Shown here in pieces: positions 3,094 through 63,520 of a stretch of 64,000 nt of DNA (position 1 is its first letter; each line of letters starts with the position of its first letter). A program made the translations under genes and the position numbers. Below the pieces are notes generated by a model. The model made no database searches. It saw only the letters and a list, made by a program, of their open reading frames with translations, and was not told where the DNA came from. The stretch comes from Sphingobacteriales bacterium 44-15 (GTDB lineage Bacteria; Bacteroidota; Bacteroidia; Chitinophagales; Chitinophagaceae), in assembly GCA_001899685.1 (NCBI GenBank), contig MKWG01000043.1, forward strand, positions 1-64,000, written 5' to 3'.

Positions 3094-3095
3094 GT

Positions 3096-11592: not shown

Positions 11593-11600
11593 AATTCGGG

Positions 11601-11663: not shown

Positions 11664-11710
11664 CCTGTCCGACTTTCACCAGGAAGGCATTCACCGTTCA
11701 CACCAAACTG

Positions 11711-14166: not shown

Positions 14167-14240
14167 TCGGGAAGACAAGATTCGAACTTGAGACCCTCCC
14201 GCTCCAAGCGGGATGCGCTACCGGGCTGCGCCACTTCCCC
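14167..14240 (-). tRNA. tRNA-Pro (anticodon TGG) with an unusual first base pair
   Basis: A 74-nt cloverleaf on the minus strand: acceptor GGGGAAG/CTTCCCG, D-stem GCGC, anticodon arm TCCCG-CTTGGAG-CGGGA with TGG at positions 34-36, T-loop TTCGAAT, discriminator A. No CCA is encoded. The first pair is G1-G72 (mismatch), where the neighbour has C1-G72, and the outermost T-stem pair is T-T. C1-G72 is a proline identity feature in bacteria, so function may be reduced. Confidence 0.9.
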
Positions 14241-14311
14241 ATTAATACCGGATTGGAGAATATACAAAAACAAAAACCGCAATCTTTTTAAGAATGCGGT
14301 TTTGCGTTTAG

Positions 14312-14385
14312 TCGGGAAGACAAGATTCGAACTTGCGACCCCTTGCACCCCATACAAGTGCGCTACCGGGCTGCGCCACTTCCCG
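14312..14385 (-). tRNA. tRNA-Pro (anticodon GGG)
   Basis: A 74-nt cloverleaf: acceptor CGGGAAG/CTTCCCG, D-stem GCGC, anticodon arm CTTGT-ATGGGGT-GCAAG with GGG at 34-36, T-arm GCAAG-TTCGAAT-CTTGT, discriminator A, no encoded CCA. All stems pair. Its 5' end and upstream flank are part of a perfect 35-bp repeat (14359-14393 = 14674-14708). The 3' end of the GIY-YIG reading frame runs into it. Confidence 0.97.
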
Positions 14386-18902: not shown

Positions 18903-18975
18903 AAATTGTGAGAAGAGAAACGTGAGACGTGAAAGACCGCTCACATTCAGTATCGTCTCACTTCTCACGTTCGCC
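18903..18975. repeat. Heptad-phased palindrome between convergent genes
   Basis: The left arm is AAACGTGAGACGTGAAAG (near 18917-18934). The right arm is the complementary CGTCTCACTTCTCACGTT (near 18954-18971). Both arms are built of CGTGAGA-like heptamers. It probably acts as a terminator for both convergent genes. Confidence 0.7.
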
Positions 18976-36073: not shown

Positions 36074-36111
36074 TATTCTTTTTGACCGGCATATAGTGAT
36101 ATGTTAATTGT

Positions 36112-36165
36112 GAAACGACAAAGGTGAGACGTGAAAGCATCTCTACCCTTTGTCGTTTCTCTTTT
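36112..36165 (+). terminator. Terminator of asnB formed by a heptad-type palindrome
   Basis: GAAACGACAAAGG (36112-36124) pairs with CCTTTGTCGTTTC (36147-36159), a 13-bp perfect stem, and a CTTTT tail follows. The whole element can be read in 7-nt words of the TGAGACG dialect. Confidence 0.75.
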
Positions 36166-36175
36166 AACGACCCGG

Positions 36176-46786: not shown

Positions 46787-46884
46787 TAGCGTTAAGTCAG
46801 GCAAATTATGTCTGTTCATTTTCGTGAAACGTGAAATGTGAAACGTGAACCGAGCTTTCACATTTCACGTTTGATATAGCATTA
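46787..46884. mobile_element. MITE-like heptad element, copy 1 (98 bp)
   Basis: The left end (type B) begins TAGCGTTAAGTCAGG. Its 25 bp at 46791-46815 recur exactly, inverted, at 62184-62208. The interior holds seven in-phase heptamers, four GTGAAAC-like and three inverted CACGTTT-like (46824-46872). The right end (type A) TTGATATAGCATTA matches the end of the other copies. The terminal TTA forms the stop codon of the AraC-type gene. It encodes nothing. Confidence 0.75.
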
Positions 46885-47754
46885 GTTTATGATCTGCTTT
46901 TGCGAAAGCTTTATGCTGTTTTTGAAATCGGTAGGCGCAATGCCGGTATTGGTTTTAAAGAAGCGGCTGAAATTAGCTGCATCCTCGAACCCAAGCCGGT
47001 CTGCAATTTCCTTTGCCGACTGATCAGTATAATACAAATACCTTTTGGCTTCCATAATGATCCTTTTATGAATGACCTTCAATGGGGATTCATGGTTAAG
47101 CATCAGGAAAATATTGGCAAGTGTTTTGGGAGAACGGTTGAGCAGCCCTGCATAAAACCGCACTTCGTGCTCTGAGGTAAAATGCTGCTCCACCAGCAGG
47201 TTGTACTGACGAACAAGATCCAATTTATCCTGGGAAAAATGCTCTGTTGTACGGGCATATTTTTTCCTTGCCTCGGTAGTTACCTTTACAATAAGCCTTT
47301 TTAATAACACCAGCAGCATTTCGTGCTGTATATTATCTTTGGTATTGAACTCCTCCACGAACATTTTAAAAACAACATCAAGGCTCTGCCTTTGCCCGGG
47401 AGGCATCTCCACCAGCAACAGCGTATTGGCATAAAATAAAAAGCCGGCGCATCCCACTTCAGCGTCATGTCTTGCAATACAATAAAAATCCCTGTTGAAC
47501 TGCCAGGCAACAATATCCTTTGGACATTCGAAACAAAACTGCTGGTCGGATACAAGAGGCACGATCGTATGCGCCGGAATAGGTACCGGCGCGTCGTCAA
47601 TATAAGCGGTCTGCGCTTTTCCCCTGTTCCATGCGATGGTCAAAAAAGGAAGAGCGCGCTGCTCGGCAGGCCTGATGCTGTTCCGGAATTCGGTTTCATG
47701 AAAAATCAACCGGAGCGTTCCCCCGGTTGATCTCTCCTCAAAAGATAAATGCAT
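46882..47754 (-). CDS. AraC-family transcriptional regulator
   Basis: 290 aa. The N-terminal half (about 1-150) is a cupin-like sensor ('AYIDDAPVPIPAHTIVPLVSDQQFCFECPKDIVAWQFNRDFYCIARHD'). The C-terminal double HTH (about 185-285) shows 'FYAGLLNRSPKTLANIFLMLNHESPLKVIHKRIIMEAKRYLYYTDQSAKEIADRLGFEDAANFSRFFKTNTGIAPTDFKNS', the AraC signature. It is the last gene before a MITE-like element whose end supplies the stop codon. Its target is unknown; the spondin-domain gene lies just upstream with a 19-bp gap and could be co-transcribed. Confidence 0.92.
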   Translation of the reverse strand: MHLSFEERSTGGTLRLIFHETEFRNSIRPAEQRALPFLTIAWNRGKAQTAYIDDAPVPIPAHTIVPLVSDQQFCFECPKDIVAWQFNRDFYCIARHDAEVGCAGFLFYANTLLLVEMPPGQRQSLDVVFKMFVEEFNTKDNIQHEMLLVLLKRLIVKVTTEARKKYARTTEHFSQDKLDLVRQYNLLVEQHFTSEHEVRFYAGLLNRSPKTLANIFLMLNHESPLKVIHKRIIMEAKRYLYYTDQSAKEIADRLGFEDAANFSRFFKTNTGIAPTDFKNSIKLSQKQIIN

Positions 47755-47772
47755 GCTGCAAAAATATATGTA

Positions 47773-49083
47773 CTAATTTTTATTCATTATGGAAACACGG
47801 ATAATATCTTTCACCGCGGGTACGGGATAGGTGTCGCTGATCGCGTCAACCGGCTTGCTTTCCGGAGTTGACGCCGCACCGCCAAATGCTGCCTGGCTGT
47901 TGCCGGCTCCGGGGAATTGATCCACAGCCGTACCATCATCAAAAAGCATGACCTTATCACTCAGATCTCCCGTTGTGCCTGCATCCACTCCATCGCCGCC
48001 AAATGAAAAGAACCAGTCGTTGGAATAACCGAACATAGTGGCAAAGCTGATCTTATCGCCAGGCTTAACGTCAATTTTCTGCTCTATCTGCCCTGCTTCA
48101 TTTCCCGCAAGGGCAGGAAGTAATACAGTAGTGCCCTGGGCGGCTGCTACATATACATTTCTTACACCCGGCATATTTTCCAAAGCTGCGGCAAGCACGG
48201 AAGCATCTCCTTTTTGTGCGATGTTGGAAAGCCCTTTCCCAAAATCATTTTCACCTGTTTGGAACAATGGATTGGTTTTTCCGTTGTACACTACGATCAA
48301 TACCGGGGAAAGCGGTGTAAATATCTTCGTATTGGCACTGGCATAATTCCACAACTCGCTGTTGTCTCCTCTTTCCGCAATAGCCGTTACCCCATTGGCA
48401 GTAGGCTTTCCGCTTTCAAAAAACGGGGCAGGACTAAGCAGGTTGCCGGCAAGAATATTGGAAACGGCCCATACTCCGGGACTGAACGGTGTTTCATTTT
48501 GAGTGCCTCCCGAAGTATTTTCAATAGTAAAGGTAAACACGGAATTGCCATCATATTTCAGGGTAGCCTTCAGGAGCTTACCGGCAGCAAGGTAGGCATT
48601 ACCCTGGTCGTCTGTACCCATTACTTCTTTGATGGCTTTATTATCCGGATCTCCGGGATGCATTACATTCATGCCCGGCTGCTGGTTGATACGCGTACCA
48701 TTATCCCAAAGCTTTATCTGATCCGACATATCTCCTTCTACAGGGTTGCCGTTACCATCAAAGAGCGTAATGCCCGGATTGGCAGGGGCAAAGAATAAAT
48801 CATTTGACCAGCCATACATAGTAGTAAACATCAGCGCTTGTCCTTTGCCTGCGGAAAAGCTGAAGCTTACTTTCTGCCCCGGGAATATCACCGGCGGAAC
48901 GGGATCTGTTCCTGCGCCTTTAAAGGTCCCGGATTCCGCGAGTTTCTTTGCATCCAGCACATTTTCTACCTTAAAATAAACACCTTTCCTATAAGGGTTG
49001 TCATGTTTTTTGCAAGCAATCAAAAACATAGAGCAACCCGCAGTAAGTAATGCGAACAAAAAGAATTGTTTAACTGGTTTCAT
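47773..49083 (-). CDS. Lipoprotein with two spondin-N domains
   Basis: 436 aa from the ATG at 49083; upstream codons to 49158 lie in an AT-rich leader and are rejected. The signal MKPVKQFFLFALLTAGCSMFLIAC ends in a lipobox. The two Spondin_N-like halves show 'ALMFTTMYGWSNDLFFAPANPGITLFDGNGNPVEGDMSDQIKLWDNGTRINQQPG' (first) and 'KISFATMFGYSNDWFFSFGGDGVDAGTTGDLSDKVMLFDDGTAVDQFPG' (second). The fold binds calcium and extracellular ligands in animals. In bacteria the role is unknown, and surface adhesion is a guess. It shares direction with the AraC gene downstream. Confidence 0.87.
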   Translation of the reverse strand: MKPVKQFFLFALLTAGCSMFLIACKKHDNPYRKGVYFKVENVLDAKKLAESGTFKGAGTDPVPPVIFPGQKVSFSFSAGKGQALMFTTMYGWSNDLFFAPANPGITLFDGNGNPVEGDMSDQIKLWDNGTRINQQPGMNVMHPGDPDNKAIKEVMGTDDQGNAYLAAGKLLKATLKYDGNSVFTFTIENTSGGTQNETPFSPGVWAVSNILAGNLLSPAPFFESGKPTANGVTAIAERGDNSELWNYASANTKIFTPLSPVLIVVYNGKTNPLFQTGENDFGKGLSNIAQKGDASVLAAALENMPGVRNVYVAAAQGTTVLLPALAGNEAGQIEQKIDVKPGDKISFATMFGYSNDWFFSFGGDGVDAGTTGDLSDKVMLFDDGTAVDQFPGAGNSQAAFGGAASTPESKPVDAISDTYPVPAVKDIIRVSIMNKN

Positions 49084-49529
49084 AACAATTTGTTTTAGGA
49101 GTAATGAAAGATCAATAATGTGAATAGCATTTTGCAGGTGTAAATATGAGCCAGGCAAAAAGTAAACGGGATATCAATTTTTCCCAATGTCTTGTCAATA
49201 ATTCCCCTGGATGAAATATTAATGCACAAATGTTATGATTAATATAAAGCTGTATCCCAGTTTCCTGCAAATGCTCGTTCTATAATGTACATATCCACAC
49301 ATATTCCCGGGCAGGCGCCAGTACAAGATTTTTTATTCTTGCAGGAAAGCAGGGAATTTTTATACCCACTTTTATCATTGCGGAGAAATTTCCTTCCCAC
49401 TCATTCCGGTATTATGTAGCGCTGCAGGCGAATGACGACAGGGTTAACAAATATCCCGGTGGTGTTTCCCCTGCATGTTAACCATAAAGCACCTTAAAAT
49501 AATTTTTTCAATGTGCATAACTGTTGGCA
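49084..49529. other. Long divergent intergenic region with an inverted repeat
   Basis: About 450 bp without a coding frame. It holds a GGTTAAC...GTTAACC inverted repeat (about 49441-49485) and an AT-rich stretch near 49200-49260. Probably it contains the spondin gene promoter, but no TTTG-N19-TAnnTTTG site is evident on the minus strand. Confidence 0.4.
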
Positions 49530-49544
49530 TGGCATAGCCTTTGA
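49530..49544 (+). promoter_or_regulatory. Sigma-54-like -24/-12 element before the DUF892 gene
   Basis: TGGCATAGCCTTTGA has the -24 GG and the -12 TTG with 5 nt between TGGCAT and TTGA, close to the sigma-54 consensus TGGCAC-N5-TTGC but ending A instead of C. Transcript start would be near 49556, 185 nt before the start codon, with a MITE-like element in the leader. No sigma-54 gene is in the window, so the match needs proof. Confidence 0.4.
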
Positions 49545-49561
49545 AGTACCGTGCATTGATA

Positions 49562-49705
49562 TAGTGCTAAGTCTCGCAGATTATTGTTATCGTGAAAAGT
49601 GAGAGGAGAGACGTGAAATGTTTGTCGTCTGACGTTTCTCGTTTGACGTTTGTCATTCAGCCTCTTGCTTTTCACTTCTCACGTCTCACGTTTGACAGCG
49701 CACTA
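49562..49705. mobile_element. MITE-like heptad element, copy 2 (144 bp)
   Basis: The left end is type B-like, TAGTGCTAAGTCTCG, with TGTTATCGTGAAAAGTGAGA shared with copy 4. The right end is type A, TTGACAGCGCACTA. Fifteen heptamers run in one phase from 49591 to about 49695 (CGTGAAA, GGAGAGA, CGTTTGA, CTTCTCA and others). It lies in the leader of the DUF892 gene, between the sigma-54-like site and the start codon. Confidence 0.75.
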
Positions 49706-49740
49706 TATATCTTATTTTCTCAATTTAAAACTTATCTACT

Positions 49741-50292
49741 ATGGCAAACGGTAAACCAGCCACTACAAGAGGTACCAACAGTGGCATGAAACAGGACAGT
49801 GAATTGTATAAATTCTTCGTGGATGCAGTGAAGGACATCTATTGGGCGGAAAAACACCTTACCAAGGCATTACCCAAAATGATCAAAGCTGCTTCTTCGG
49901 AACAATTGCAAACTGCAATTGAAGATCACCTGGAACAGACCAAAGGGCATGTGACGCGCCTGGAAAATGTATTTGAAATGCTGGGGCAAAGAGCGCAGGC
50001 AAAAAAATGTGAGGCAATGGAAGGGCTTCTGAAGGAATGCGACAGTATTGTGGAAGAGACAGAAGAAGGAACAGCCACCCGTGACGCTGCCGTTATCATG
50101 GCCGCACAAAAAGTAGAACACTACGAGATTGCCACCTACGGTGGACTGGTAACTTTTGCAAAAACATTAGGCTATGCTGATGCGGCAAATGTGCTTGCAG
50201 AAACACTGGAAGAAGAAAAAAATGCAGATACAGGGTTAACAGAAATAGCTGAAAATGCCATTAACTGGGAAGCTGCTGAAGAGCATGCCTGA
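49741..50292 (+). CDS. DUF892 ferritin-like protein (YciE/YciF family)
   Basis: 183 aa, close to the family's usual length. The pattern 'LYKFFVDAVKDIYWAEKHLTKALPKMIKAASSEQLQTAIEDHLEQTKGHVTRLENVFEMLG' and 'DAAVIMAAQKVEHYEIATYGGLVTFAKTLGYADAANVLAETLEEEKNADTGLTEIAE' holds the Glu/His residues of the di-iron-like four-helix bundle. These proteins are stress-induced in enterobacteria and bind metals. A cytoplasmic stress role is likely. A short N-terminal Gly/Thr-rich tail precedes the bundle. It has its own terminator and a sigma-54-like element upstream. Confidence 0.93.
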   Translation: MANGKPATTRGTNSGMKQDSELYKFFVDAVKDIYWAEKHLTKALPKMIKAASSEQLQTAIEDHLEQTKGHVTRLENVFEMLGQRAQAKKCEAMEGLLKECDSIVEETEEGTATRDAAVIMAAQKVEHYEIATYGGLVTFAKTLGYADAANVLAETLEEEKNADTGLTEIAENAINWEAAEEHA

Positions 50293-50331
50293 TAAGCTCA
50301 GCTATGTTTCTTTTTTCTGTTAATGCAGGAA

Positions 50332-50367
50332 GAGCCGTATAACAATTGCGAATGCGGCTCCTTTTTT
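50332..50367 (+). terminator. Terminator of the DUF892 gene
   Basis: GAGCCGTAT (50332-50340) pairs with ATGCGGCTC (50352-50360) with one wobble, followed by T6 (50362-50367). It reaches the stop codon of the convergent M20 gene. Confidence 0.85.
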
Positions 50368-51550
50368 AATTTCCCAAACGCTTAAGTGCGATATAAGCCA
50401 TCAGTCCTGTGCTGATCCGCAATGCATCCTCATCAATATTGAAAGTGGGCGTATGCAGCGAAGACGATATTCCTTTTTGCTCATTACCTACGCCCAATAA
50501 GTAAAAGCAGGAGGGAGCCACCTGGGAATAGTAAGAGAAATCTTCCGATGCCATCCATATATCGGCATCTATCACATTTTCTTTGCCCAGGTAAGCACAG
50601 GCATGGTCGTGCAGCTCCCGGGTAAGCACTTCGTTATTGATGAGAAAAGGATATCCTTTGTGAATATCAAATTCGCAGCGCCCCCCCATGCTTTCTGCGA
50701 TATTCTCTGCCATCTTCTTCATACGCCCGTGCGCTTCCTCACGCCAGTCCTCATCCATAGTGCGGAAAGTACCCTCCATATACACTTCATCGGGGATCAC
50801 ATTGATGGCGCCATCTGCGATTACTTTTCCAAAAGACAGCACAGTAGGTACATAAGGTTTTGCCATACGGCTTACTATCTGCTGCAATGCGATCACAATA
50901 TGCGAGGCAATCACCACAGGATCAATATTGAGGTGCGGCTGTGCGCCATGCCCTCCCCTGCCGATCACCCTTACTATGATCTCATCCATTGACGCCATAT
51001 ACTTTCCCGGTCGTATAGCAATTTTACCGGCAGGCAGGGAAGGCATTACATGCTGCCCGACCACTGCGGAAGGCGACGGGTTTTTCAGCACGCCGTCTTT
51101 TATCATCAGGCTGGCACCTCCCGGCAATTTTTCTTCACCCGGCTGGAAGATCAGCTTCACCGTGCCGCCAAATTCATTTTTCAGCGATTGCAGTATCTGT
51201 GCAGTACCCAGCAGCGAAGCCGTATGGGCATCATGACCGCAGGCATGCATCACCCCTTTATGCTTTGATACATAAGAAATGTCATTGGCTTCAGTAATAG
51301 GAAGCGCGTCCATATCAGCGCGGAGCGCTATAATGTTATCAGAAGGCAATGCACCCTTTATAACAGCTACAATGCCGGTAGCAGCTATTGGCGCCGCAGC
51401 GATACCCATAGCCTCCAATCGTGCCTTTACAAAAGCGGCGGTCTCATGCTCTGAAAAAGACAATTCGGGATGCGCATGCAGATGGCGGCGGTTGGCAATA
51501 ACATCATCACTTATTTTTTCCGCCAGCTCCCTGAAATGACTTATATCCAT
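50366..51550 (-). CDS. M20-family amidohydrolase (N-acyl amino acid hydrolase type)
   Basis: 394 aa from the ATG at 51550; a TTG four codons upstream is less likely. It shows the M20D pattern: 'IALRADMDALPITE' near 75, 'GVMHACGHDAHTASLLGTAQIL' near 105 with the metal Cys/His, 'KLIFQPGEEKLPGGASLMI' near 135 with the catalytic Glu, 'VVGQHVMPSLPAG' and 'MASEDFSYYSQVAPSCFYLLGVG' near 350. Members release amino acids from N-acyl or hippurate-like substrates. The substrate is not predictable. It converges on the DUF892 gene. Confidence 0.93.
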   Translation of the reverse strand: MDISHFRELAEKISDDVIANRRHLHAHPELSFSEHETAAFVKARLEAMGIAAAPIAATGIVAVIKGALPSDNIIALRADMDALPITEANDISYVSKHKGVMHACGHDAHTASLLGTAQILQSLKNEFGGTVKLIFQPGEEKLPGGASLMIKDGVLKNPSPSAVVGQHVMPSLPAGKIAIRPGKYMASMDEIIVRVIGRGGHGAQPHLNIDPVVIASHIVIALQQIVSRMAKPYVPTVLSFGKVIADGAINVIPDEVYMEGTFRTMDEDWREEAHGRMKKMAENIAESMGGRCEFDIHKGYPFLINNEVLTRELHDHACAYLGKENVIDADIWMASEDFSYYSQVAPSCFYLLGVGNEQKGISSSLHTPTFNIDEDALRISTGLMAYIALKRLGN

Positions 51551-51603
51551 AATACCTTTCAATTGAATATTTAGCAGTGAAAGGTATTGCTTTTTAGTTA
51601 TAC

Positions 51604-52350
51604 TTACTCTTTACGATGCATCATCATTTGCCAGGGCGCGCTGCTCAGTATCAGGCTGAAGTAAAACTGGCTGATACCATCGCGCGGGGCATTATTCAGT
51701 TCCTGCCCGTCTTTTGACCGCCATGCATTTTTTCTGAAGCTGCCTGTATAGCCCGCCTGCAGCCCGATAGCATTGGAAGGATAACGCACAGATTTTAACT
51801 GTATCCCTATACCCGCGCGGTACACAAAGAAATCGTTGTTGAATTTTACAGGGCTGATGGTCTCCTGAATTCCGGGCAGACCCAGCACACTATTAAAATC
51901 CACCCCGGTATTATCACGGTAAAAGACAGCCTGGTACATCTGGTATCCTAACCCGACAAAAGGGTAAAGTGTCACCATTTTTTTATTCAGTACATCATAT
52001 CCCATATTGGCATTGAAACCGATATAATGGATCGTACTGCTTTTACGGTCCCTGTGGGCGCTGAGGCTGCTGCCTATATTGATATTCATCTCAGATACCA
52101 CCCGGTTCATCTCATGCATCATACCAAGACCGAGTGTAGCCGTATATCCTTTAAGCGATTCATATTGGGGTAAATTTGCTACACGCCCATTCAGTTTATC
52201 AAATTGCTGAAAGCTGCCGCCGAGAGAACGGGTCATGGAGGGTACATACTTTTCCATATCCTTCCAGTCATGTTTTTTATGCATAGGCTTATCCTGTGCT
52301 GCAGCGGAACACGCTGCAAGAAGCATCAGGGATGTAATGAACATTTTCAT
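51604..52350 (-). CDS. Predicted outer-membrane beta-barrel protein
   Basis: 248 aa. A signal peptide (MKMFITSLMLLAACSAAAQ) is followed by a His/Lys-rich segment (KPMHKKHDWKDMEKY) and repeated beta strands: 'TATLGLGMMHEMNRVVSEMNINIGSSLSA', 'GFNANMGYDVLNKKMVTLYPFVGLGYQMYQAVFY', 'RAGIGIQLKSVRYPSNAIGLQAGYTGSF'. The C-terminal strand (GISQFYFSLILSS) fits an OM barrel. No specific family is recognised. The gene is adjacent to the M20 hydrolase on the same strand but with no obvious link. Confidence 0.78.
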   Translation of the reverse strand: MKMFITSLMLLAACSAAAQDKPMHKKHDWKDMEKYVPSMTRSLGGSFQQFDKLNGRVANLPQYESLKGYTATLGLGMMHEMNRVVSEMNINIGSSLSAHRDRKSSTIHYIGFNANMGYDVLNKKMVTLYPFVGLGYQMYQAVFYRDNTGVDFNSVLGLPGIQETISPVKFNNDFFVYRAGIGIQLKSVRYPSNAIGLQAGYTGSFRKNAWRSKDGQELNNAPRDGISQFYFSLILSSAPWQMMMHRKE

Positions 52351-52395
52351 AACAATATATTTTATGGTGAAAAGAACGAAGTCATATCGTAGAGC

Positions 52396-52538
52396 TAGTG
52401 TTATGTCAAACGTGAAACGGCAGATGATAAATGTGAGATCCTCACATTTATCGCCTGCCTGCCATGCCTACGGCAGGTAAACCGGTAGGCAAGTCTCACC
52501 TCTCACAAATACGAACAATTATTGTTGACATAGCACTA
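52396..52538. mobile_element. MITE-like heptad element, copy 3 (143 bp)
   Basis: Both ends are type A: TAGTGTTATGTCAA (52396-52409) and its complement TTGACATAGCACTA (52525-52538), with one mismatch in 14. The interior starts with heptamers (GTGAAAC, GATAAAT, GTGAGAT and inverse) and is interrupted by a GC-rich palindrome (about 52454-52490). It lies between the divergent barrel protein and alpha/alpha-barrel genes. A TA dinucleotide sits at both ends, compatible with a TA target. Confidence 0.78.
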
Positions 52539-52784
52539 TGCTCAGTTGCACAAAGTTAATTACAGTAATTATGTCATCCTGTAATACTTTGTACTTTCCC
52601 ATAACAAACGAAGTGCCCGGAATGCGGGTTTTAAAGGAATGAAATTTAGGCCTATCTTCCTCTGGGAATAACACAAGCTTAACAGGGACAATCAAAAAGA
52701 TGCCCGGAATGAGTACCCGGAAACTATTGAAAGATTTATAATAAATTACAGCCCCTATAGTTTTAACCGATTAAACCAAACTAC
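52539..52784. other. Upstream region of the alpha/alpha-barrel gene
   Basis: About 250 bp with no coding frame. A TAGTTTTA sequence (52756-52763) resembles a -7 element with one mismatch, 21 bp before the start codon. No -33 element is evident. Confidence 0.35.
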
Positions 52785-54485
52785 ATGAAGTATTGTTTTT
52801 CTACAATCACTGTGCCCGCTATTGCATTGCTGCAGCTCCTGTCATCATGCAGCCACCCGCCCTCCACAACCTATACCGGGCTGGACAACCACTTGATACA
52901 TGCGGTCAAAGACAGCATTACCGGCGAACGCTTATACCTTACAAGAGATTCATCATTGAGTTACCATAATGTACGTACAGACCAGGATGGCGGCATACTG
53001 CCCTGGTATGCTGCAGACATGGGAGCTTCTTATGATACCGTTATCAGGCTTGTCTGGCATTTCTGGGACAGGATGGAAACCGACTCCAATGGTGAAAAAT
53101 ATTATATGAATCACCAGGTATGGCGCCCGCAGCATGACAAAAGAGGGCTTGGCGGTGATCAGTTGATGATGGCACTTTCGTCCTGGGATCTATTGTACAA
53201 CTATACAGGCAATGCCGCTATAGTGGACAATATGAAATATATGGCAGATTATTATTTATCGCACGGATTTACAACACCGGGTGATGCCTGGCCCAATATA
53301 CCCTACCCTTATAATACCGTTTTGCATTCCGGCAGGTATGATGGCGACATGATACTGGGAAAGGACTATACACAACCGGATAAGGCCGGATCGTTTGGCT
53401 ACGAGCTTGTGCATTTATACAAAAAAACAGGCGACAGCAAATACCTGGATGCCGCCGTAAAGATTGCCAACACGCTGGCGGCTAAAGTGCAGCCCGGAGA
53501 TGAATTCCATTCCCCATGGCCTTTTAAAGTGAACGCTACGACGGGCGAAGTGGGTAAACTGATCAATCATCCCAAGATCAACAAACCTGAGCCTGGTACT
53601 TCTTTTACAACAGAGCAGCCTTCTATATATACAACCAACTGGACGCCGACACTCCGGCTGTTCACTGAGCTTGCCACATTGAAAAAAGGCGACAGTGCAG
53701 CATACAGCAAAGCCTATGATATTGCACTTAACTGGATGAAAACATTCCCGGCAAAGAACAACAAATGGGGACCTTTCTTTGAAGATATCCTGGGCTGGTC
53801 TGACTGCCAGATCAATGCTATTACGTACGCAATGTACCTGATGGATAATGAGCAGGCCGATCCCGGGTGGAAACAAACGGTGAAAAATATTTTCAACTGG
53901 GTGCACTCCGCTTTAGATGATACCGAATTTCAGAAATTCGGCGTCATCACCACAGACGAGCAAACCATATACCGCACTCCCGGCAACAGCCACTCCTCGC
54001 GGCAGGCGTCTATGGAGCTGCGCTACCGGGAAAAGACCGGCGACACTTCCCGGCTGCAAAACGCCATCAGGGAGCTCAACTGGGCAACCTATATGGTGAA
54101 CACCGATGGAAGGAATTATTATCTCCGCGACGATATCTGGCTGACAGACGGGTATGGCGATTATGTAAGGCATTATATCCGTGCCATGGCGGCTGCACCG
54201 GAGCTGGCGCCTTCCGGTACAAATCACCTCCTGCGCACGTCTTCCATAGTTTCGCATATTGATTATCGTGATAACGAGATAAGCTATGCAACTTTTGACG
54301 ATGTATCAGGAGAAAAATTCAGATTAAAAAGTAAACCGTCAGTCATAACGGTTGATGGAAATATATTAAAAGAAGTTAACAACCCCAATGCAGAAGGATA
54401 TGTTTGGCAAAGCATCAGCAGCAACGGGGATGGCATACTTATCGTTCATAAAACTGCCGGCAAACAAGTAAGGATACAGTTATAA
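52785..54485 (+). CDS. Exported lipoprotein, alpha/alpha-barrel (six-hairpin) glycosidase-like
   Basis: 566 aa. The signal (MKYCFSTITVPAIALLQLLSSC) ends in a lipobox. The body has helical hairpin pattern with repeats such as 'DQLMMALSSWDLLYNYTGNAAIVDNMKYMADYYLSHGF', 'GSFGYELVHLYKKTGDSKYLDAAVKIANTLAAKV' and 'ASMELRYREKTGDTSRLQNAIRELNWATYMV', as in glycoside hydrolases and lyases with an (alpha/alpha)6 barrel. The C-terminal 100 residues are beta-rich. It is convergent with the SusCD cluster and may be part of the same glycan locus. I cannot name a GH family. Confidence 0.7.
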   Translation: MKYCFSTITVPAIALLQLLSSCSHPPSTTYTGLDNHLIHAVKDSITGERLYLTRDSSLSYHNVRTDQDGGILPWYAADMGASYDTVIRLVWHFWDRMETDSNGEKYYMNHQVWRPQHDKRGLGGDQLMMALSSWDLLYNYTGNAAIVDNMKYMADYYLSHGFTTPGDAWPNIPYPYNTVLHSGRYDGDMILGKDYTQPDKAGSFGYELVHLYKKTGDSKYLDAAVKIANTLAAKVQPGDEFHSPWPFKVNATTGEVGKLINHPKINKPEPGTSFTTEQPSIYTTNWTPTLRLFTELATLKKGDSAAYSKAYDIALNWMKTFPAKNNKWGPFFEDILGWSDCQINAITYAMYLMDNEQADPGWKQTVKNIFNWVHSALDDTEFQKFGVITTDEQTIYRTPGNSHSSRQASMELRYREKTGDTSRLQNAIRELNWATYMVNTDGRNYYLRDDIWLTDGYGDYVRHYIRAMAAAPELAPSGTNHLLRTSSIVSHIDYRDNEISYATFDDVSGEKFRLKSKPSVITVDGNILKEVNNPNAEGYVWQSISSNGDGILIVHKTAGKQVRIQL

Positions 54486-54491
54486 AGACTA

Positions 54492-54586
54492 TTTCACGCA
54501 AAGCGGCAAAGAATGCAAAGCAGCAAAGTTTTATTTTCAATATTTCTCATCGCGTACTTTGCTTTCCCGGCTGGCTTTGCGTGAAA
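54492..54586. repeat. GCAAAG-word palindrome
   Basis: TTTCACGCAAAG (54492-54503) pairs perfectly with CTTTGCGTGAAA (54575-54586). Between them are several GCAAAG and GCAAAG-like words. It sits between the convergent alpha/alpha-barrel and PKD genes and probably terminates both. Confidence 0.7.
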
Positions 54587-54605
54587 TAAACTCAGCCCTC
54601 AGCAA

Positions 54606-55466
54606 TTAAAGCTGCAACTGTATGAACTTTGCCTCCGGGTTTCCATTTTCAGGAATCCTGCCGACAGGGGACCAGCCGGCATCCAGCTCAACCAGGGCAA
54701 AATTGATAGCTCCCTTTATACTTCCCAGTGCAGACTTTTTTATGGAAAATTCTATAATATTTTTCCCGCTCACTGTTTTAACAGCAGAAAAGTGCATATC
54801 TGTATCAAAACTGAAAACAGCGTTAAAGGACCAGTCTGCCGGAGCTCCCAAGTGCTCATATCCCGATCCCCAACTGGGGGATGTGGCGGGACCTTCCAGC
54901 AAATAGTCCATGCCTGATCCACCGGGATAATCCCCGACGATGTACCCTGTGGCCGGGTTGTTATCCGCATCTATGTACATATCTATCATGTCCAGCTTCA
55001 TGGCAGTAGTGCCTTCCACCAGGAAATTAATATCCTGTGCGGTGGCAAAAGACTTGATAGCGCGGATATTCCCTCCAAAATCTTCGCTGTTGGTATGAAG
55101 GTATTCTACGTACTCCCAGTCTGTAAAGTCGCCGTCAATTTTAATATTGGGACCCAATATGCTTACGGTATCCGTAAATATATCTGTTTGAGCCCCGTTG
55201 GTAGCCGTAAGCGACACGAGAAAATCTCCCTTCCTGGAAAAAATATGCTGGGGCGACTTAAGTGATGAGCTGTCACCGGGCTTGTCGTTAAAATCCCAGT
55301 GATAGGTTTTAGCGCCGGAGGAAAAATTGGTGAAGGTCACTTTAAATCCGTCCGCCACATAGCTGAATACAGATTTAAGGCTACCGTTGTCTTTATCCTT
55401 TTTACAGGCAGCGGCGGTGATAATGATCAGCCACCAGGCTATTATATAAATGAGATTCCGTTTCAT
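54606..55466 (-). CDS. PKD-domain lipoprotein with a DOMON/CBM9-like C-terminal domain
   Basis: 286 aa. A lipobox signal (MKRNLIYIIAWWLIIITAAAC) is followed by a PKD fold (about 35-115: 'FSYVADGFKVTFTNFSSGAKTYHWDFNDKPGDSSSLKSPQHIFSRKGDFLVSLTATN'). The C-terminal half (about 120-286) has 'IKIDGDFTDWEYVEYLHTNSEDFGG' and later 'KNIIEFSIKKSALGSIKGAINFALVELDAGWSPVGRIPENGNPEAKF', resembling DOMON or CBM9-type sugar-binding modules. It probably binds glycan at the cell surface, in the position SusE/F proteins occupy in other loci. It is the last gene of the SusCD operon. Confidence 0.83.
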   Translation of the reverse strand: MKRNLIYIIAWWLIIITAAACKKDKDNGSLKSVFSYVADGFKVTFTNFSSGAKTYHWDFNDKPGDSSSLKSPQHIFSRKGDFLVSLTATNGAQTDIFTDTVSILGPNIKIDGDFTDWEYVEYLHTNSEDFGGNIRAIKSFATAQDINFLVEGTTAMKLDMIDMYIDADNNPATGYIVGDYPGGSGMDYLLEGPATSPSWGSGYEHLGAPADWSFNAVFSFDTDMHFSAVKTVSGKNIIEFSIKKSALGSIKGAINFALVELDAGWSPVGRIPENGNPEAKFIQLQL

Positions 55467-55507
55467 ATTTTTTATTTTTACGACCAGTTCCTGATCGTTA
55501 TAGTTAA

Positions 55508-56875
55508 TTATTGGATAGTGATCTGCTTGTTCAGCCGGTTTATGCCATTATGCTCCGTAAGCCAGCCATTGTTATTAGCCAGTTGTACTGCATATTCGAT
55601 CCTGTCAGCAAGTGCAGGATCCTGGTCTGTAATACGAAGAAACAGCTCATACCCGCCCCCGGGGATGCCGGCAAGGCTTACTGATCCCCCGATATTTTGT
55701 GTAACAGCAGGTTTGCACAACCGCAGATCTGCAGACAGTTCTTTGTCATAGAAATCACCTGTGGCAATGTTTTTGAATACCAGGTATATTTTCTTTTTGT
55801 TGTACAAAGGCGCATATCCTTTATTAGTGATATTAATGTCAGCCGGCATATTACTATTTGCTGCTGCTTTATCCGGCAATAAGGCATCCACTAACGCCAG
55901 CCTGTAACCGAGATACCGTTGGAACTCGTCAAAGCACCCGGAGTTCTTCCAGGCATTGATGGTGGGCTGGTACCAGTCGAGGTTGAGATAAGTCCATTTC
56001 AGGAATGCCATTTCCTTACGCCCTTCCGCACAGGTAGGATCATAGCCATCGGTTGGCGGGCAGGTTTCTCCGCCTGTAGGCACATACAGCGCTTCCGTGC
56101 TGATGTATTGCTTTTCCGCTTCCACGTTATTATAGGTGCCGTAATCTGTACCTCCTGTCAGAAAGCAGTCATTATGATGCCCTACCCTTGCGCGGTTTTC
56201 TCCTGTATAGGCCAGCTCGGCAGTCAGTGGAGAAGTGGTATTGAATATCTGTTGCTTTGCAGATGGCGTTCTCACCTGCACCATGATATCTGCCGGCAGC
56301 ACGCTCAGCAACTTGTTCAGCACCAGTCTTTCATTATCCACCGTTGCCAGCCCGTTGCTGGAATCATGCCATTCTCCCCAGGCGCCGATAAATCCTGCCT
56401 GCACAAATGCTATGACATCTTTGTTATTTTCAAATACCGTTTTCAACTGGTCAAGATGCTGCTCAATAATGGCGTACGGGGCATCCGTTCCCTGCATATC
56501 ATCGGTATAGGCAAAACGCAGGATTACTTTTAAACCTGCTTTCCTTATGGTTTCAAGATCACTTTCTATGAGGGAGAGCTCTGCGTTGCTGATAGCTTGG
56601 TCTTTAAATGCATCAAGATAAAAGACCCGCAGGATCATTGTTACATTCTGGCTTCTCAGCAGGTTGACATCGCCTGCGCCAAGCTTGCTGCCTTCGGAAA
56701 ATACATTCATTGTTTTGATGAACCCGCGTTCCGGGTTTGGGAATATTGCATTGGAAACCTCGTATTGTATACGGTCTTCCGTCGTGTCTTTACCTGCCTC
56801 TGAGCGCTTGCACCCGCAAAAACCGGTGGCAGCCAGCAGCCAGAAACAAAATGTATATATGTTTTTTAGTGCCAT
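55508..56875 (-). CDS. DUF4874/DUF4832 surface lipoprotein
   Basis: 455 aa. The signal ends at a lipobox-like GFCGC. The DUF4874 part (about 35-215) has 'YEVSNAIFPNPERGFIKTMNVFSEG', 'MILRVFYLDAFKDQAISNAELSLIESDLETIRKAGLKVILRFAY' and 'VIAFVQAGFIGAWGEWHDSSNG', reminiscent of a TIM-barrel glycosidase. DUF4832 (about 220-455) ends in beta-rich, binding-type sequence. The pair is found in glycan loci but has no known activity as far as I recall. It follows susD by about 30 bp and so is part of the transport operon. Confidence 0.88.
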   Translation of the reverse strand: MALKNIYTFCFWLLAATGFCGCKRSEAGKDTTEDRIQYEVSNAIFPNPERGFIKTMNVFSEGSKLGAGDVNLLRSQNVTMILRVFYLDAFKDQAISNAELSLIESDLETIRKAGLKVILRFAYTDDMQGTDAPYAIIEQHLDQLKTVFENNKDVIAFVQAGFIGAWGEWHDSSNGLATVDNERLVLNKLLSVLPADIMVQVRTPSAKQQIFNTTSPLTAELAYTGENRARVGHHNDCFLTGGTDYGTYNNVEAEKQYISTEALYVPTGGETCPPTDGYDPTCAEGRKEMAFLKWTYLNLDWYQPTINAWKNSGCFDEFQRYLGYRLALVDALLPDKAAANSNMPADINITNKGYAPLYNKKKIYLVFKNIATGDFYDKELSADLRLCKPAVTQNIGGSVSLAGIPGGGYELFLRITDQDPALADRIEYAVQLANNNGWLTEHNGINRLNKQITIQ

Positions 56876-56903
56876 GTCTGTTCTTTTTAATGAAATTTTG
56901 TGT

Positions 56904-58370
56904 TTACTGGTAGCCGGGATTTTGAATAAATTTTCCCTTTCCTTCGCTTACGGTTTGCAGTGAGAACGGGAACAGCACTTTATTGGGATTGGTGTAGGTG
57001 GATTGTGTTACTTCCTGGCAACGGCTGACAAATTTTCCATGGCGGATAAGATCTGCACGATACTGGCCATTTTCACACCAGAACTCATGGCTTCTCTCCA
57101 GCAGGATCAGGTCATTGAATGCATCAAGGGAAGCATAATCAGACAGCTTTTTATCTTCCAGACCGGCTCTTCTTCTTACCACATTCACCAGTTCCATCGC
57201 TTCTTCGGTAGGAGCGCCGGCATTGGCGATCGCTTCCGCTTTGGAGAGCAGCACATCCGGGTAACGGTACATTACAATATCCACCGTAGTGAGGCTGGTA
57301 GTGCGATCAGCATCTTCATTGATCTTTAAAGGAATAGGTCCCCAGTCCAGGATAGCCCCGGGATTAGCCCTGTTGTAAGTGATGCCATCGCTGCCGGTAT
57401 ACTCTGCAATAAGCATTTTTTTTCGCTTGTCATCCGGCTCAAACCTGTCGTAAAACCACCAGGTACTGGATATGGTGCCCCATCCGCCTTTGGGCTTATA
57501 ATTGGATGGCAATACCATTAGCTGCCACTGGTTTTCACTAGTGCCTGCATAATCGCAGGGAATGGCCCAAATCACTTCCCTGCTGTTCTTCGCGCCTTCA
57601 AGATCCCATATTGCGGCATAATCATTATCAAGCGTGTAGGCATTATAGGCTATAATATCATCGCACAGGGTCTTTACTTTATCCCATCTTTTTTCATGCA
57701 GGTTTAGTCTTATATCAATCATTTTAGCCAACGCTTTGCTGAAACGGCCATACTCTGCATCCTGCGGCAAAGGCAGATCCGCAGCGGCAGCTTCCAGGTC
57801 TGCTTCAATAAAATCTACCATTTCATTATAATCCATCCGTGCCAAAGGCGCTTCCTGCAAAGGATTCTTCAATACTTCCAGCGGCGCTATTACAAGAGGT
57901 CCATACAGGTCAAAAAGCGTATATGCCAGCAATCCCCTTGCACACCTCACCTCTGCAATTGCCTTTTTCTTCAGGTCTTCGCTTACGGCTGACTGTGAAA
58001 TGAGGTCAATAGTCATTGTCATACGGCTGATCTTATTATAAAAATCATCATAATAGCGGGTAAACCCCGGGCTGTTTGACTGGTAATTCTGCAACGAGGC
58101 TATATTCTGATCGCCATACTTACCATATAATATTTCAGTGGTCGCATCGCTCAGAAACATTACGCCTCTTTCTGAAGTGGAAAAAATGCCATCACTCCAT
58201 GCGCCCCGCAATGGGTAATAGCAGGCGTTGACCATTGCTTCCAGGTCTGATGCTGATTTGGGAAATATATTCGGGTTGATCTCAGAATAATCTATGGGCA
58301 CCAGGTCTTTGGTACAACTGTTCAGCCATACCGCAAACACTAAGAAAATAAAGCTGATATATTTTTTCAT
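56904..58370 (-). CDS. SusD/RagB-family glycan-binding lipoprotein
   Basis: 488 aa from the ATG at 58370; a GTG three codons upstream is possible. The lipobox VWLNSC is at about 15-20. 'NPNIFPKSASDLEAMVNACYYPLRGAWSDGIF' is followed by tetratricopeptide-like helices and by 'YRYPDVLLSKAEAIANAGAPTEEAMELVNVVRRRAGL', then 'ILLERSHEFWCENGQYRADLIRHG', all typical of SusD. It caps the SusC barrel and binds the glycan or oligosaccharide. It follows susC directly (21 bp). Confidence 0.96.
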   Translation of the reverse strand: MKKYISFIFLVFAVWLNSCTKDLVPIDYSEINPNIFPKSASDLEAMVNACYYPLRGAWSDGIFSTSERGVMFLSDATTEILYGKYGDQNIASLQNYQSNSPGFTRYYDDFYNKISRMTMTIDLISQSAVSEDLKKKAIAEVRCARGLLAYTLFDLYGPLVIAPLEVLKNPLQEAPLARMDYNEMVDFIEADLEAAAADLPLPQDAEYGRFSKALAKMIDIRLNLHEKRWDKVKTLCDDIIAYNAYTLDNDYAAIWDLEGAKNSREVIWAIPCDYAGTSENQWQLMVLPSNYKPKGGWGTISSTWWFYDRFEPDDKRKKMLIAEYTGSDGITYNRANPGAILDWGPIPLKINEDADRTTSLTTVDIVMYRYPDVLLSKAEAIANAGAPTEEAMELVNVVRRRAGLEDKKLSDYASLDAFNDLILLERSHEFWCENGQYRADLIRHGKFVSRCQEVTQSTYTNPNKVLFPFSLQTVSEGKGKFIQNPGYQ

Positions 58371-58391
58371 ATACTGCACAGTTAATTCGGT

Positions 58392-61300
58392 TTAGAAATT
58401 AAGATTTAAGCCTATGGTATATGTCCTGATATAAGGATAGGCGGCGGTGTAAGAATCTGTTTCAGGATCTACTCCGCTATAGGGTGTAATCACAAACAGG
58501 TTCTGTGCGTCAGCGTGTATACGTGCGGACCTGAGCACTTTCCCAAACCACTTGTGCGGGAGATCATATCCCAGCGAAACATTCTGCAGCCGGATGAACC
58601 ATGCGTCCTCTACAAAGAAATCACCTACACCATATGGCGACCACCCGTAAAACGAGCTGGGATGTATGGTAGAAGGGTTTTCAGGTGTCCACCTTTCTTT
58701 AACAGTTCTTAATGCATTATACCCGTTGGAATATACACCGGCGGCACTGACGCCGTAAGTGGTGTAATTAGGATCGGCAAACCTTCTCCCGAACAATGCA
58801 TTGAAATCAAAATTCAGGCTGAAATTTTTGTACATAAATATATTGGTAAGCCCTGCCATAAAGCTGGGATCAGAAGTGCCCATCAGCTTTGTATCTGCCT
58901 CATCAATCCTCCCGTCAGGCTTGCCCAGGCGTATAAACCTGCCATTGGCATCTACCAGAGGATTCCCGCTACCGTCTCTTTCAAACCCGTCAATGTCTTT
59001 TATTTTGATCATGCCCGGCTTAAGCTCCGGTTGTGATGCAGGCACCTGCTCGCCTACCTGCAGAATACCATCCGCTTCCCGGCTGTATGTAGCACGTATG
59101 GGATCATTGGCATTTTCATATACTGCAGGCTTCCAGTCGGGAGCTCTTTCCTTCCAGGTGTCCTTATAACGGGAAATCACAAACATCGTCCGCCATTGAA
59201 AGTCCTTGTTTTGTATGTTGCGGCTATTGACAGTGATCTCAAATCCCTTGCTCTGTGTCTTTCCTATATTGGCAATAATAGTATTCACTTCCTGGTAGGA
59301 GTTCAGGGATTTTGTTGCCAACAGATCCGAGATAATATTATTGAACAGCTCTATTGACCCGTCAACCCGGCCATTAAGAATAGAGAAATCGAGCCCCAGG
59401 TTAGCGCCGGTAGTGGTTTCCCATTTCAGGTCAGGATTTTCCAGCCTTGCCAGCGATACGCCGATCATGCGGGCATCGCTTCCGCTCAGCCATGCAGGAT
59501 AAGCGGCATAGGCGGCAAAAGCATTGCTGTTGATGGTAGCATTCCCTGTTTGCCCGTAGCTCAACCTCAGCTTCAATTGTGAAAAAGTATTTTTCAGGAA
59601 TCCCAGGAAAGGTTCTTCTGCCATGTTCCATGCCACAGCCGCTGAAGGGAAAGTACCCCATTTATGATTAGCGGCAAATACACTGGCGCCGTCAGTACGC
59701 ACTGTTGCGGTAACATAATACCGCCGTTTGAAATTGTAGTTAACCCTTCCGAAATAAGAAGCGATCATATTTTTGGAGCCAGCGGAATTGGTGGGCAACT
59801 GTACGCTGCCCGCGCCAAGGTTATTCCATAAAAATGCATCGGTAATAAATCCTGACGCGCCTTCACTATGCGTGCCGGTAACGAATTTTTGTTGCGACAC
59901 GCCGCCCAGCAGGTCTATATTATGCGCTGCAATGCTGGTGTTGTAATTGGCAGTGGCTTCCAGCAGGTAGGAATTGTTATCTACACTTGATATAAAAGCC
60001 CTGCCATGCTCCAGCGCGCCGTGAAGTGTGGTTGTGGGGAGATAGTTTTGTCGTATGGAGCTCCCGCGGTCTATGCCTGCTTTCAGTTTAACGGTAAGCC
60101 CTTTCAGCGGCGTGATGTCTACAAAAAAGTTACCCAGGAAACGTTCTATCCTGCCCTCGTCGCTTATGGTGAGCAGCGAATAGGGGTTAGGCTGCAAAGC
60201 CAGTTGGGGGTTCAAAGGATAATCCCCGTTTTCATCAATTGCCGGGATATGCGGTCCCTGCTGTATGGCAGCGCGTATGATACCGGAGTTCTCATACTGG
60301 TCTGCACCGAGCTGGCTGTTTTTGTTATCAATCCTGCTGGCGGTAAAATTCACGCCGGTTTTTATGAACCTGTTGATCTCCTGGTCAATATTTGCCCTTA
60401 CCGAGTATCTTTTAAAAGAAGCATTTTTTATGATACCGTCCTGGTCGTAATAGTTGCCGGATATAAGGTACTTTGTATATTTTGTTCCTCCTGATAAAGA
60501 AATATTGTGCTGCATGGTTTTGCCGTCGCGGGTAACGAGACCAAACCAGTCAGTACCGCGCCCTACGTTGTTGATGGCATTTTGTGTATATAATTTCCTG
60601 AAAGGGCCGTTTACGGGATTAGCTTCTGCTTCTTCTTGCGTACGGTTGCCATAAGGATATACATTATTATCAAACTGCCACTGCTCCCATGCGGCTTCAT
60701 TACGCACCTGCATCCATTCATTCAGCGGAAGCACGTCAAAAGGGTTATTATATTTCTGGAAGGAGAAATCATTGGAATATTGCACTTTTAATGCGCCTTC
60801 GCTTCCCCGTTTGGTGGTAATGAGGATCACCCCGTTGGCAGCTCTCGATCCATAGATAGATGTAGCGCTGGCATCTTTTAAGACCTCCACGGATTCAATA
60901 TCGTTGGGGTTAAAAGAATTGAGAATGCTTTGTGTACCTGCATTATACCTACCGCCGCTTTCCGGCTGCTCAAGGTCAACAATAGGGAATCCGTCTACCA
61001 CAAACAATGGTGCATTACTTGCATTCACAGAGCCTGCGCCGCGCACCAGTATGTCCAGTCCGCCACCCGGCTGGGCGCTGTTCTGGCGGATGGTGAGCCC
61101 AGCCACTTTGCCTTTCAGCATATTGCCTATTTCAGGGCCGGAAGACAACACGAGATCCTTGGTTTTTACAGAAGAGACAGCACCGGTAAGGTCACGTTTC
61201 TTTTGAGTGCCGTATCCTATCACCACCACTTCATCCGTCTGCGTTTCCATCGCCTTCAGGGCAATATTTACACTGGCATTTGCCCTGGAAACCCGTAGTT

Positions 61301-61904
61301 CGGCAGTCTGGTATCCCACATAGGAAATAACAAGGATCGCCTGCTCACCTGGTATTTGTAAGGAAAATTCTCCGTTGGCATCGGTGCTTGTTCCTGCGTC
61401 CGAGCCTTTTATTCTAACGGATGCTCCTTCGAGGGGCTGACCCGGGTTGTTTTCAGCAGTTATCTTTCCTTTTATTTCCACCGGAGGCAGCGGCGGGGAT
61501 TCGCTTTGGGGTATAGCAGGCGCCGGGGCCGGCTTAGGAGCGATCACAATAAACCCGTCGCGTATGGTATAGGATAATGACTGGTTCCTGAATACCAGTG
61601 CCAGCGCATCTTCCAGCGAAGCGTTGGTAACATCAATATCAACTCTTGAGGCTTTGGCTATCTCGTTTTTGCCATAAATAATACGATAGCCGGTTTGTTT
61701 CGTGATCTTATTCAACACTACTTCAATGCTCGCATTGTTCATCTTCAGTGTAATGCCTTGCGCGTAACCACCGGCATTGGCCTCCAAAAGGCAGCTGAAG
61801 AGTAAAATGACAGTAAGTCTCATAACTAAGCAGATTTTTCGCAAAAAAGTATTACAGTTTCGGTACCTGCACAGCAGTGCTTGGCGATAAGCAATGAATC
61901 GCAT
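58392..61904 (-). CDS. SusC/RagA-family TonB-dependent transporter with STN domain
   Basis: 1170 aa. A long N-terminal leader (about 1-48, with MRLTVILLFSCLLEANAGGYAQ) is followed by an STN domain (about 50-120, 'IEVVLNKITKQTGYRIIYGKNEIAKASRVDIDVTNASLEDALALVF'). The CarboxypepD-like domain (about 145-215) has 'GASVRIKGSDAGTSTDANGEFSLQIPGEQAILVISYVGYQ'. The plug shows 'GTQKKRDLTGAVSSVKTKDL' and 'VDGFPI', then the large barrel. The STN domain implies signalling to the FecR/FecI pair directly upstream. Substrate is unknown. Start at 61904 is kept because this leader type is common; the ATG at 61823 is possible. Confidence 0.95.
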   Translation of the reverse strand: MRFIAYRQALLCRYRNCNTFLRKICLVMRLTVILLFSCLLEANAGGYAQGITLKMNNASIEVVLNKITKQTGYRIIYGKNEIAKASRVDIDVTNASLEDALALVFRNQSLSYTIRDGFIVIAPKPAPAPAIPQSESPPLPPVEIKGKITAENNPGQPLEGASVRIKGSDAGTSTDANGEFSLQIPGEQAILVISYVGYQTAELRVSRANASVNIALKAMETQTDEVVVIGYGTQKKRDLTGAVSSVKTKDLVLSSGPEIGNMLKGKVAGLTIRQNSAQPGGGLDILVRGAGSVNASNAPLFVVDGFPIVDLEQPESGGRYNAGTQSILNSFNPNDIESVEVLKDASATSIYGSRAANGVILITTKRGSEGALKVQYSNDFSFQKYNNPFDVLPLNEWMQVRNEAAWEQWQFDNNVYPYGNRTQEEAEANPVNGPFRKLYTQNAINNVGRGTDWFGLVTRDGKTMQHNISLSGGTKYTKYLISGNYYDQDGIIKNASFKRYSVRANIDQEINRFIKTGVNFTASRIDNKNSQLGADQYENSGIIRAAIQQGPHIPAIDENGDYPLNPQLALQPNPYSLLTISDEGRIERFLGNFFVDITPLKGLTVKLKAGIDRGSSIRQNYLPTTTLHGALEHGRAFISSVDNNSYLLEATANYNTSIAAHNIDLLGGVSQQKFVTGTHSEGASGFITDAFLWNNLGAGSVQLPTNSAGSKNMIASYFGRVNYNFKRRYYVTATVRTDGASVFAANHKWGTFPSAAVAWNMAEEPFLGFLKNTFSQLKLRLSYGQTGNATINSNAFAAYAAYPAWLSGSDARMIGVSLARLENPDLKWETTTGANLGLDFSILNGRVDGSIELFNNIISDLLATKSLNSYQEVNTIIANIGKTQSKGFEITVNSRNIQNKDFQWRTMFVISRYKDTWKERAPDWKPAVYENANDPIRATYSREADGILQVGEQVPASQPELKPGMIKIKDIDGFERDGSGNPLVDANGRFIRLGKPDGRIDEADTKLMGTSDPSFMAGLTNIFMYKNFSLNFDFNALFGRRFADPNYTTYGVSAAGVYSNGYNALRTVKERWTPENPSTIHPSSFYGWSPYGVGDFFVEDAWFIRLQNVSLGYDLPHKWFGKVLRSARIHADAQNLFVITPYSGVDPETDSYTAAYPYIRTYTIGLNLNF

Positions 61905-62078
61905 AGCTTTGTTTTGTTTGGGTTATTTAATTAAATGATCGTTTGCGGATTGTTTAACAGTAGCCTGCACATTCTGCCGGGAGTGCTTCCAACGCTTCCG
62001 GTTTTTAATGCCTGCTCCTCATAAAAATTATACCTCGGTATTTGTATACATGTGCTAATGATTTAAGTGGTTATAAAA

Positions 62079-62213
62079 TAGTGTTATGTCAAACGTGAAA
62101 TGTGAGATGTGAGACATTCTTTCACCTTTATCCCCGTCCGAATGGCATTCAGCCGGGCGGGTTCTCACTTTTCACGATAACACACAGACATAATTTGCCT
62201 GACTTAACAGTAG
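62079..62213. mobile_element. MITE-like heptad element, copy 4 (about 135 bp)
   Basis: The left end is type A, TAGTGTTATGTCAA (62079-62092), identical to copy 3. The right end is type B, with 25 bp (62184-62208) identical in inverse to 46791-46815. Heptamers GTGAAAT, GTGAGAT, GTGAGAC start the interior, and a GC-rich palindrome (about 62133-62161) interrupts it. It fills the 312-bp gap between fecR and susC together with an AT-rich leader. The right edge abuts the fecR stop codon. Confidence 0.78.
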
Positions 62214-63454: not shown

Positions 63455-63520
63455 GTGAATGGGCAATTGTCAATGGTGAATTCATTCACCATTCACCATT
63501 CACCATTCACCATTCACCAT
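63455..63520. repeat. Heptad tandem array and palindrome (ATTCACC dialect)
   Basis: Five perfect ATTCACC heptamers occupy 63484-63518. Opposite-strand words GGTGAAT (63454-63460) and GGTGAAT (63475-63481) precede them, giving a short hairpin. It lies between the sigma gene and fecR. Confidence 0.85.

Follow-up and report, generated by a model that had tools for sequence, protein, structure and literature searches.

What are the short repeats that lie four times within 16 kb of contig MKWG01000043.1 of Sphingobacteriales bacterium 44-15, and why do their ends so often coincide with stop codons? The stretch analyzed, referred to here as the window, is the first 64,000 nucleotides of this contig, from a genome of 6.0 Mb in 46 contigs. 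An earlier note, made from the letters of the window, had described the repeats (Table 1) as miniature inverted-repeat transposable element (MITE)-like, with a TA target. We find that they very probably belong to a genus-level family of non-autonomous MITE-like DNA elements that insert at TA, and we infer from the sequence that the elements are mobile. Sharp borders, unrelated flanks, element-free relatives, and a palindromic target logo make this the best reading. Elements of this kind are known; the family itself is new and has a marked stop-codon habit.

Both element ends open with a 14-bp terminal inverted repeat (TIR), TAGTGYTAWGTCAA, which starts with TAG. At the right end the 14-mer passes directly into ACGTGAA words; at the left end it is followed by an AT-rich stretch, with GTC recurring 14 nt further in. 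The “type A” and “type B” ends that were previously treated as two end types proved, on comparison with copies elsewhere, to be the right and left ends, respectively, of one asymmetric element. The main subfamilies differ in the left AT-rich stretch, S1 carrying CAATAATTTGTCGTATTTCTTTGTGAG and S2 carrying GCAAATTATGTCTGTTCATTTTCGTGA, and a third, rarer subfamily, S3, is also present; the S1 copies (n = 13) have a mean column identity of 90%. Strict two-ended copies (n = 37) are 56–155 bp long, mostly 90–155 bp, and sharp borders against unrelated flanks are observed at dozens of places. As is characteristic of MITEs, the elements are short, non-coding, and dispersed, and have shared borders and terminal inverted repeats.

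The family extends genome-wide, well beyond the four copies seen initially: the 14-mer, with at most one mismatch, occurs at 129 places in the genome, compared with five for the pattern read backwards. The 37 strict copies come from a 1.64 Mb sample (27% of the genome, comprising contigs C43 and C11 whole and parts of C3, C7, and C2), in which a profile search gave 156 matches at E ≤0.01 and 118 at E <1e-5, with none in reversed sequence. Very roughly, extrapolation implies ∼400–600 copies per genome, fragments included. Inward-facing pairs of the 14-mer, 45–260 bp apart, number 24 in 464 kb (tandem pairs give some overlapping calls), with two outward-facing pairs and no inward pairs in three mononucleotide shuffles; the 14-mer alone, with up to three mismatches, does not clearly exceed chance within the window, at 15 places for 9.6 expected, a count reached by 6 of 100 shuffles. 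A DNA search with element 4 matched 10 of 28 genomes, its own included, namely nine of the 12 genus members and one other member of the taxonomic family (a 31-bp match). Among 396 genomes of the order, a sample with no other genus member, an exact pattern matched two, its own and one with a single place, and the S2 left end was found in named genomes in two contigs, both of Agriterribacter humi YJ03 (the records of the window's genome were possibly excluded). The elements were therefore found in one genus only, bar two single matches outside. They lie outside genes (36/37 strict copies and 110/118 profile copies), and 15/37 strict and 33/118 profile copies are in convergent gaps, which make up 17% of intergenic bases.

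Target sites were rejoined by removing the element and keeping one TA. On either side, the first base outward from the TA is most often G (53%) and the next one T (48%), giving a palindromic aCTAGt preference. CTAG was the target of 7/37 strict copies and of 7/25 further copies (14/62 together), compared with 0.25% of non-coding TA sites; the further copies, from beyond the 1.64 Mb, derive from 64 of 90 loci, after duplicates, already-counted copies, and loci without a two-ended copy were dropped. Two abutting elements have one common TA at C11:94433, and the junction at locus L016 is of the same kind. With both TA duplication and a CTAG preference, the target habit is IS630-like.

The TA target proposed in the earlier note is supported by this palindromic logo together with four gene ends at which relatives lack the element (gene names here and below were recognized by eye, without a family search). 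In the genus member G003, infC ends in the same residues, followed by TAA, where the copy in the window's genome enters an element, and the gene at C3:89439 has its stop at the matching place (short flanks aligned by eye); the 400 kb of G003 compared yielded no other informative case. Two further genes were picked, hpt (from eleven candidates) and a rhodanese-like gene. For hpt, gene ends were read in 10 relatives, and in 7 of them the stop is at the same codon (TAG in five); for the rhodanese-like gene this holds for one of nine (G003). The hpt gene of G004 reads TAGTATAA across the junction codon, and that of the window's genome, rejoined, has the same eight bases. This indicates that the G is part of the target and not of the element. 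The distal TA copy of the hpt element is now TG.

Using open reading frames (ORFs) of at least 80 codons, from a longest-ORF heuristic and not an annotation, we found that the element end provides an ORF with its in-frame stop in 14/37 strict copies (in one borderline case the ORF has 82 codons) and in 9/25 of the second set, such that 23 of 62 two-ended elements supply the stop of a long ORF where ∼4 would be expected. For the strict set, random non-coding TA sites predict 2.35 cases and target weighting raises this to 2.8 of 37, so the target sequence alone was rejected as the cause of the bias. The rejoined codons are 11 TAG, one TAA, and two TAT in the strict set (14 ends), and five TAG, three TAA, and two TAT in the second set (10 ends); TAG accounts for 264 of the 1,271 stops in the ORF set. 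At locus L020 one insertion serves two ORFs with TAG stops overlapping in CTAG. Nearness to 3′ ends accounts for part of the excess. Of the copies lying no more than 80 bp downstream of a stop, however, 13/32 are in the stop, versus 14% of TA sites there, or 18% when target-weighted (P = 0.002), and gene-end nearness plus target sequence is thus insufficient, with a ∼2.3-fold excess remaining. Retention may contribute, in that an element end serving as a stop codon would be protected. True stop-codon homing, in which the machinery would prefer (C)TAG at gene ends and the termini would rebuild the stop and make CTAG-like border targets, seems doubtful; were it true, the family, together with the genome-wide 7-nt arrays described below, could represent a heptad-based repeat system without a classical insertion sequence.

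Several observations weigh against MITE-like elements inserting at TA. The relatives are distant (∼64%–77% identity in the compared stretch), and for this reason only infC and hpt among the four element-free sites rest on strongly conserved gene ends. Three of the 10 relatives, G003 included, stop two codons later in hpt, and eight of nine stop elsewhere in the rhodanese-like gene, which makes the latter case a weak one. In the thrS-infC gap G003 is without the element, yet there is no alignment across the site; no filled/empty pair was found within the genome in the 1.64 Mb plus further loci; and, for the synteny of element 1, no AraC-like match was found in the ∼3-kb loci of six relatives with the epimerase-like neighbor. 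A transposase with matching ends, which the earlier note had proposed to look for, was not found in the sequence searched: the 1.64 Mb contains no TIR pair 260–5000 bp apart outside short elements, no intact IS630 was detected in the genome (PF13358 gives one 46-aa match, below the cut-off), and no IS630 is present in the element-rich genus members G003 and G007. Candidate terminal repeats at two IS630 loci of relatives are unlike the element TIR.

Other routes to a partner gave a similar picture. The TIR is absent from all 10 DDE_3 (IS630) matches in the 12 genus genomes scanned. Two apparent long elements, C2:133698/135198 and C7:1086/2456, proved to be distinct short elements, of which the first has a degenerate second end; the 1.64 Mb holds one repeat pair of at least 400 bp at 80% identity; and mutual comparison of six contig ends revealed no common insertion sequence. 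IS4/IS5 and Y1 transposases were considered as partners and showed no link to the elements, and neither the IS630 nor the Y1 count tracks the number of element matches across the genus. A decayed IS630-like transposase remnant is present at locus L091 (∼1500–2300; G000:C43 ∼343000), where it adjoins what looks, by eye, like a serine recombinase gene end. At locus L093 a Y1 transposase gene (1465–1911) lies between aroF/chorismate-mutase-like and aroB-like genes (names by eye), with a CCTGCCTGCCGGCAGGCAGG-like palindrome at 2009–2028, ∼100 bp after it.

The elements could also be MITEs of a TA-duplicating transposase outside IS630, e.g. of the IS427 branch of IS5. TA alone does not point to IS630, and the genome has one partial DDE_Tnp_1 gene (a 148-codon frame). 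However, no TIR pair brackets the gene at the 30 (of 39) DDE_Tnp_1 and nine DDE_3 loci scanned, the inward pairs at three of these loci, with 3 + 3 mismatches, not bracketing the gene either, and a CTAG preference is known for IS630 (from a title in the reference list of PMC2170065). We consider this origin unlikely.

A different proposal is that the elements are host-selected 3′-end signals (terminators or mRNA-stabilizing hairpins) whose mobile look is secondary. On both strands, the folding of each of the four window elements is better than that of shuffled sequences (z −3.5 to −7.9), and the enrichment at stop codons and in convergent gaps is what such signals would lead one to expect. In contrast, covariation in 13 S1 copies (term +0.3, two-sided change in 3/28 pairs) provides no indication that an RNA hairpin is under selection, and the folding is attributable to the inverted repeats. 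A terminator scan of the four window elements matches only the small left stem-loops, and orthologs lack the element at the same gene ends. Taken with these findings, a primary role as 3′-end signals is distinctly improbable. At gathering scores an Rfam scan of the window matched no structured-RNA family and returned only two tRNAs, the genes for which are at 14167–14385 (−). That the elements are REPIN/BIME-like and moved as single strands by a RAYT-type Y1 transposase is highly improbable: the genome does have three Y1_Tnp genes, one with an element ∼1.2 kb upstream and a palindrome ∼100 bp downstream, but Y1 genes are commoner in genus members without an element 4 match (nine in G008, six in G010), the 31 of 72 Y1 matches scanned gave one two-ended element and one cassette, both at the same locus, and TIRs, TA duplication, and a CTAG preference are not known as a Y1 habit.

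The 7-nt phase of the interior, noticed earlier in the window, is borne out across 37 elements, with a lag-7 identity of 0.41 (z 19.4), compared with 0.255 for 200 mononucleotide shuffles. The lengths of the S2 copies that have no cassette are 91, 91, 98, 98, 105, 105, 105, 131, and 153 bp, seven of the nine stepping by 7, while 4/6 S1 copies measure 107 bp; in the S1 copy L003, seven columns are missing from one arm. Runs of at least five heptad words number 68 in or near elements, 32 outside, and four in reversed sequence, and arrays occur in the first 46 kb of the window at 3100, 11624, and 18098. Since they are also found outside elements, the heptads are a wider habit of the genome, from which the elements may have taken them up. 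Arrays of 7-nt words without element ends are present in the window at 63485–63519, 11560–11720, and 3040–3180, and in C43 at 503950–504012 and 214313–214396; their words include GTGAATG, GTGAGAC, GATAAAC, GACAAAC, and the like, and some arrays have inverted arms. G+C-rich palindromic cassettes of ∼20–40 nt are found inside a subset of elements and elsewhere, and perhaps constitute an independent repeat family; in the 1.64 Mb, 8/15 matches of the K1 cassette and 2/4 of the K2 cassette are within strict elements.

For MITE-like elements inserting at TA, the following mechanism may be proposed. A TA-duplicating transposase, most like those of IS630/Tc1-mariner, would act in trans, cutting at GTG...CAC and pasting into TA; the enzyme may now be lost, may be encoded in unread or unassembled DNA, or may have gone unrecognized. 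Given the TAG at the start of the element and its preference for (C)TAG, a stop codon hit by an insertion would still be a stop codon afterwards, with the element end as the new stop, and, the stop being kept, insertion would do little harm and copies would persist. The heptads would vary by whole units, probably via slippage or exchange between arms. The family would thereby illustrate how, in nature, a compact bacterial genome can be filled by a repeat at little harm, via stop-codon TA and a terminal TAG. The stop-codon and CTAG signatures are easily tested in other genomes, and predict the character of the missing transposase.

All four elements are present in the window where the earlier note had placed them, except that the last border is at 62212, one base short of the 62213 claimed. 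The identity of TAGTGTTATGTCAA at 52396 and 62079 was confirmed, and the 25 bp at 46791–46815, read directly, are the reverse complement of 62184–62208. The view that the third copy has two type A ends is correct for the 14-mer only, since element 3 has one left and one right end. Likewise, the first 46 kb lack intact copies, as had been stated, but do contain three weak profile matches, at 3164–3302 (E 4e-3), 18907–18969 (1e-5), and 36095–36170 (2e-5). The S2 profile matches element 2 in two separate parts (E 1.6e-13 and 6e-3). Removal of element 1 in silico gives the adjoining AraC-like gene one extra Tyr codon, followed by TAG.

Table 1. Elements of the family in the window and features associated with them
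Feature	Position	Strand	Details	Evidence
Element 1, S2 subfamily	46787..46884	+ (left end first)	98 bp	S2 profile match, E 2.2e-22
Small stem-loop CAGGCAAATTATGTCTG	46798..46814	+	S2 left end of element 1	Stem listing and folding
Stop codon TAA of AraC-like gene	46882..46884	-	Element 1 end; gene 46882-47754 (-)	
Element 2, diverged S2-like	49562..49705	+ (left end first)	144 bp	S2 profile matches
Element 3, S1 subfamily	52396..52538	- (left end at 52538)	143 bp	S1 profile, E 2e-46
K1 cassette	52454..52493		40-nt G+C-rich palindrome within element 3 heptad arm	Sequence
Element 4, S2 subfamily	62079..62212	- (left end at 62212)	134 bp	S2 profile, E 2e-26
K2 cassette	62133..62161		29-nt palindrome within element 4	Sequence
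Small stem-loop, same as that of element 1	62185..62201	-	S2 left end of element 4	Sequence and stem listing

Judged by titles and abstract openings, searches of the open-licence literature gave no prior description of this family or of stop-codon-targeting repeats. The most similar designs are those of RUP, Correia, and BOX. RUP is described as a 107-bp element with TIRs and a TA target, present in ∼110 copies and with IS630-Spn1 as its proposed mover (PMC2229807, PMC3049150). The present family is likewise a short TIR element with a TA target, but differs from RUP, as so described, in having many copies in stop codons, no parent insertion sequence found, left and right ends that differ, and an interior filled by heptads. 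The Correia/NEMIS elements of Neisseria have TA termini and fall into two size classes, ∼107 bp and, with a 50-bp internal sequence, ∼155 bp (PMC2229807). This resembles S1, with copies of 107 bp and, where a 40-nt cassette is present, of ∼147 bp. In contrast to the present family with its heptads, Correia has another sequence and a longer TIR (24 bp), and the Correia description in PMC2229807 makes no mention, in the part available, of placement in stop codons. For BOX of Streptococcus pneumoniae, 36 cases are reported in which the repeat lies at the very 3′ end of a gene and encodes the stop codon, with no strong evidence of gene truncation (PMC3049150); repeat-supplied stop codons were thus a known feature before the present family. 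BOX is, however, modular (boxA/B/C) and of other sequence, and a CTAG target is without mention in the BOX description of PMC3049150, as far as it was accessible. IS630 and ISY100, of the Tc1-mariner family, are reported to insert at TA with TA duplication (PMC2170065), and a preference of IS630 for the TA in CTAG is stated in the title of a reference cited there (Tenzen and Ohtsubo 1991); these elements, unlike the present family, are autonomous, and no copy with the ends of the present family was found. BrickBuilt of Porphyromonas gingivalis is, according to PMC4596501, a Bacteroidota MITE that holds a tandem repeat, and is distinguished from the present family by its 23-nt unit, IS5-type TIR, and variable target-site duplication.
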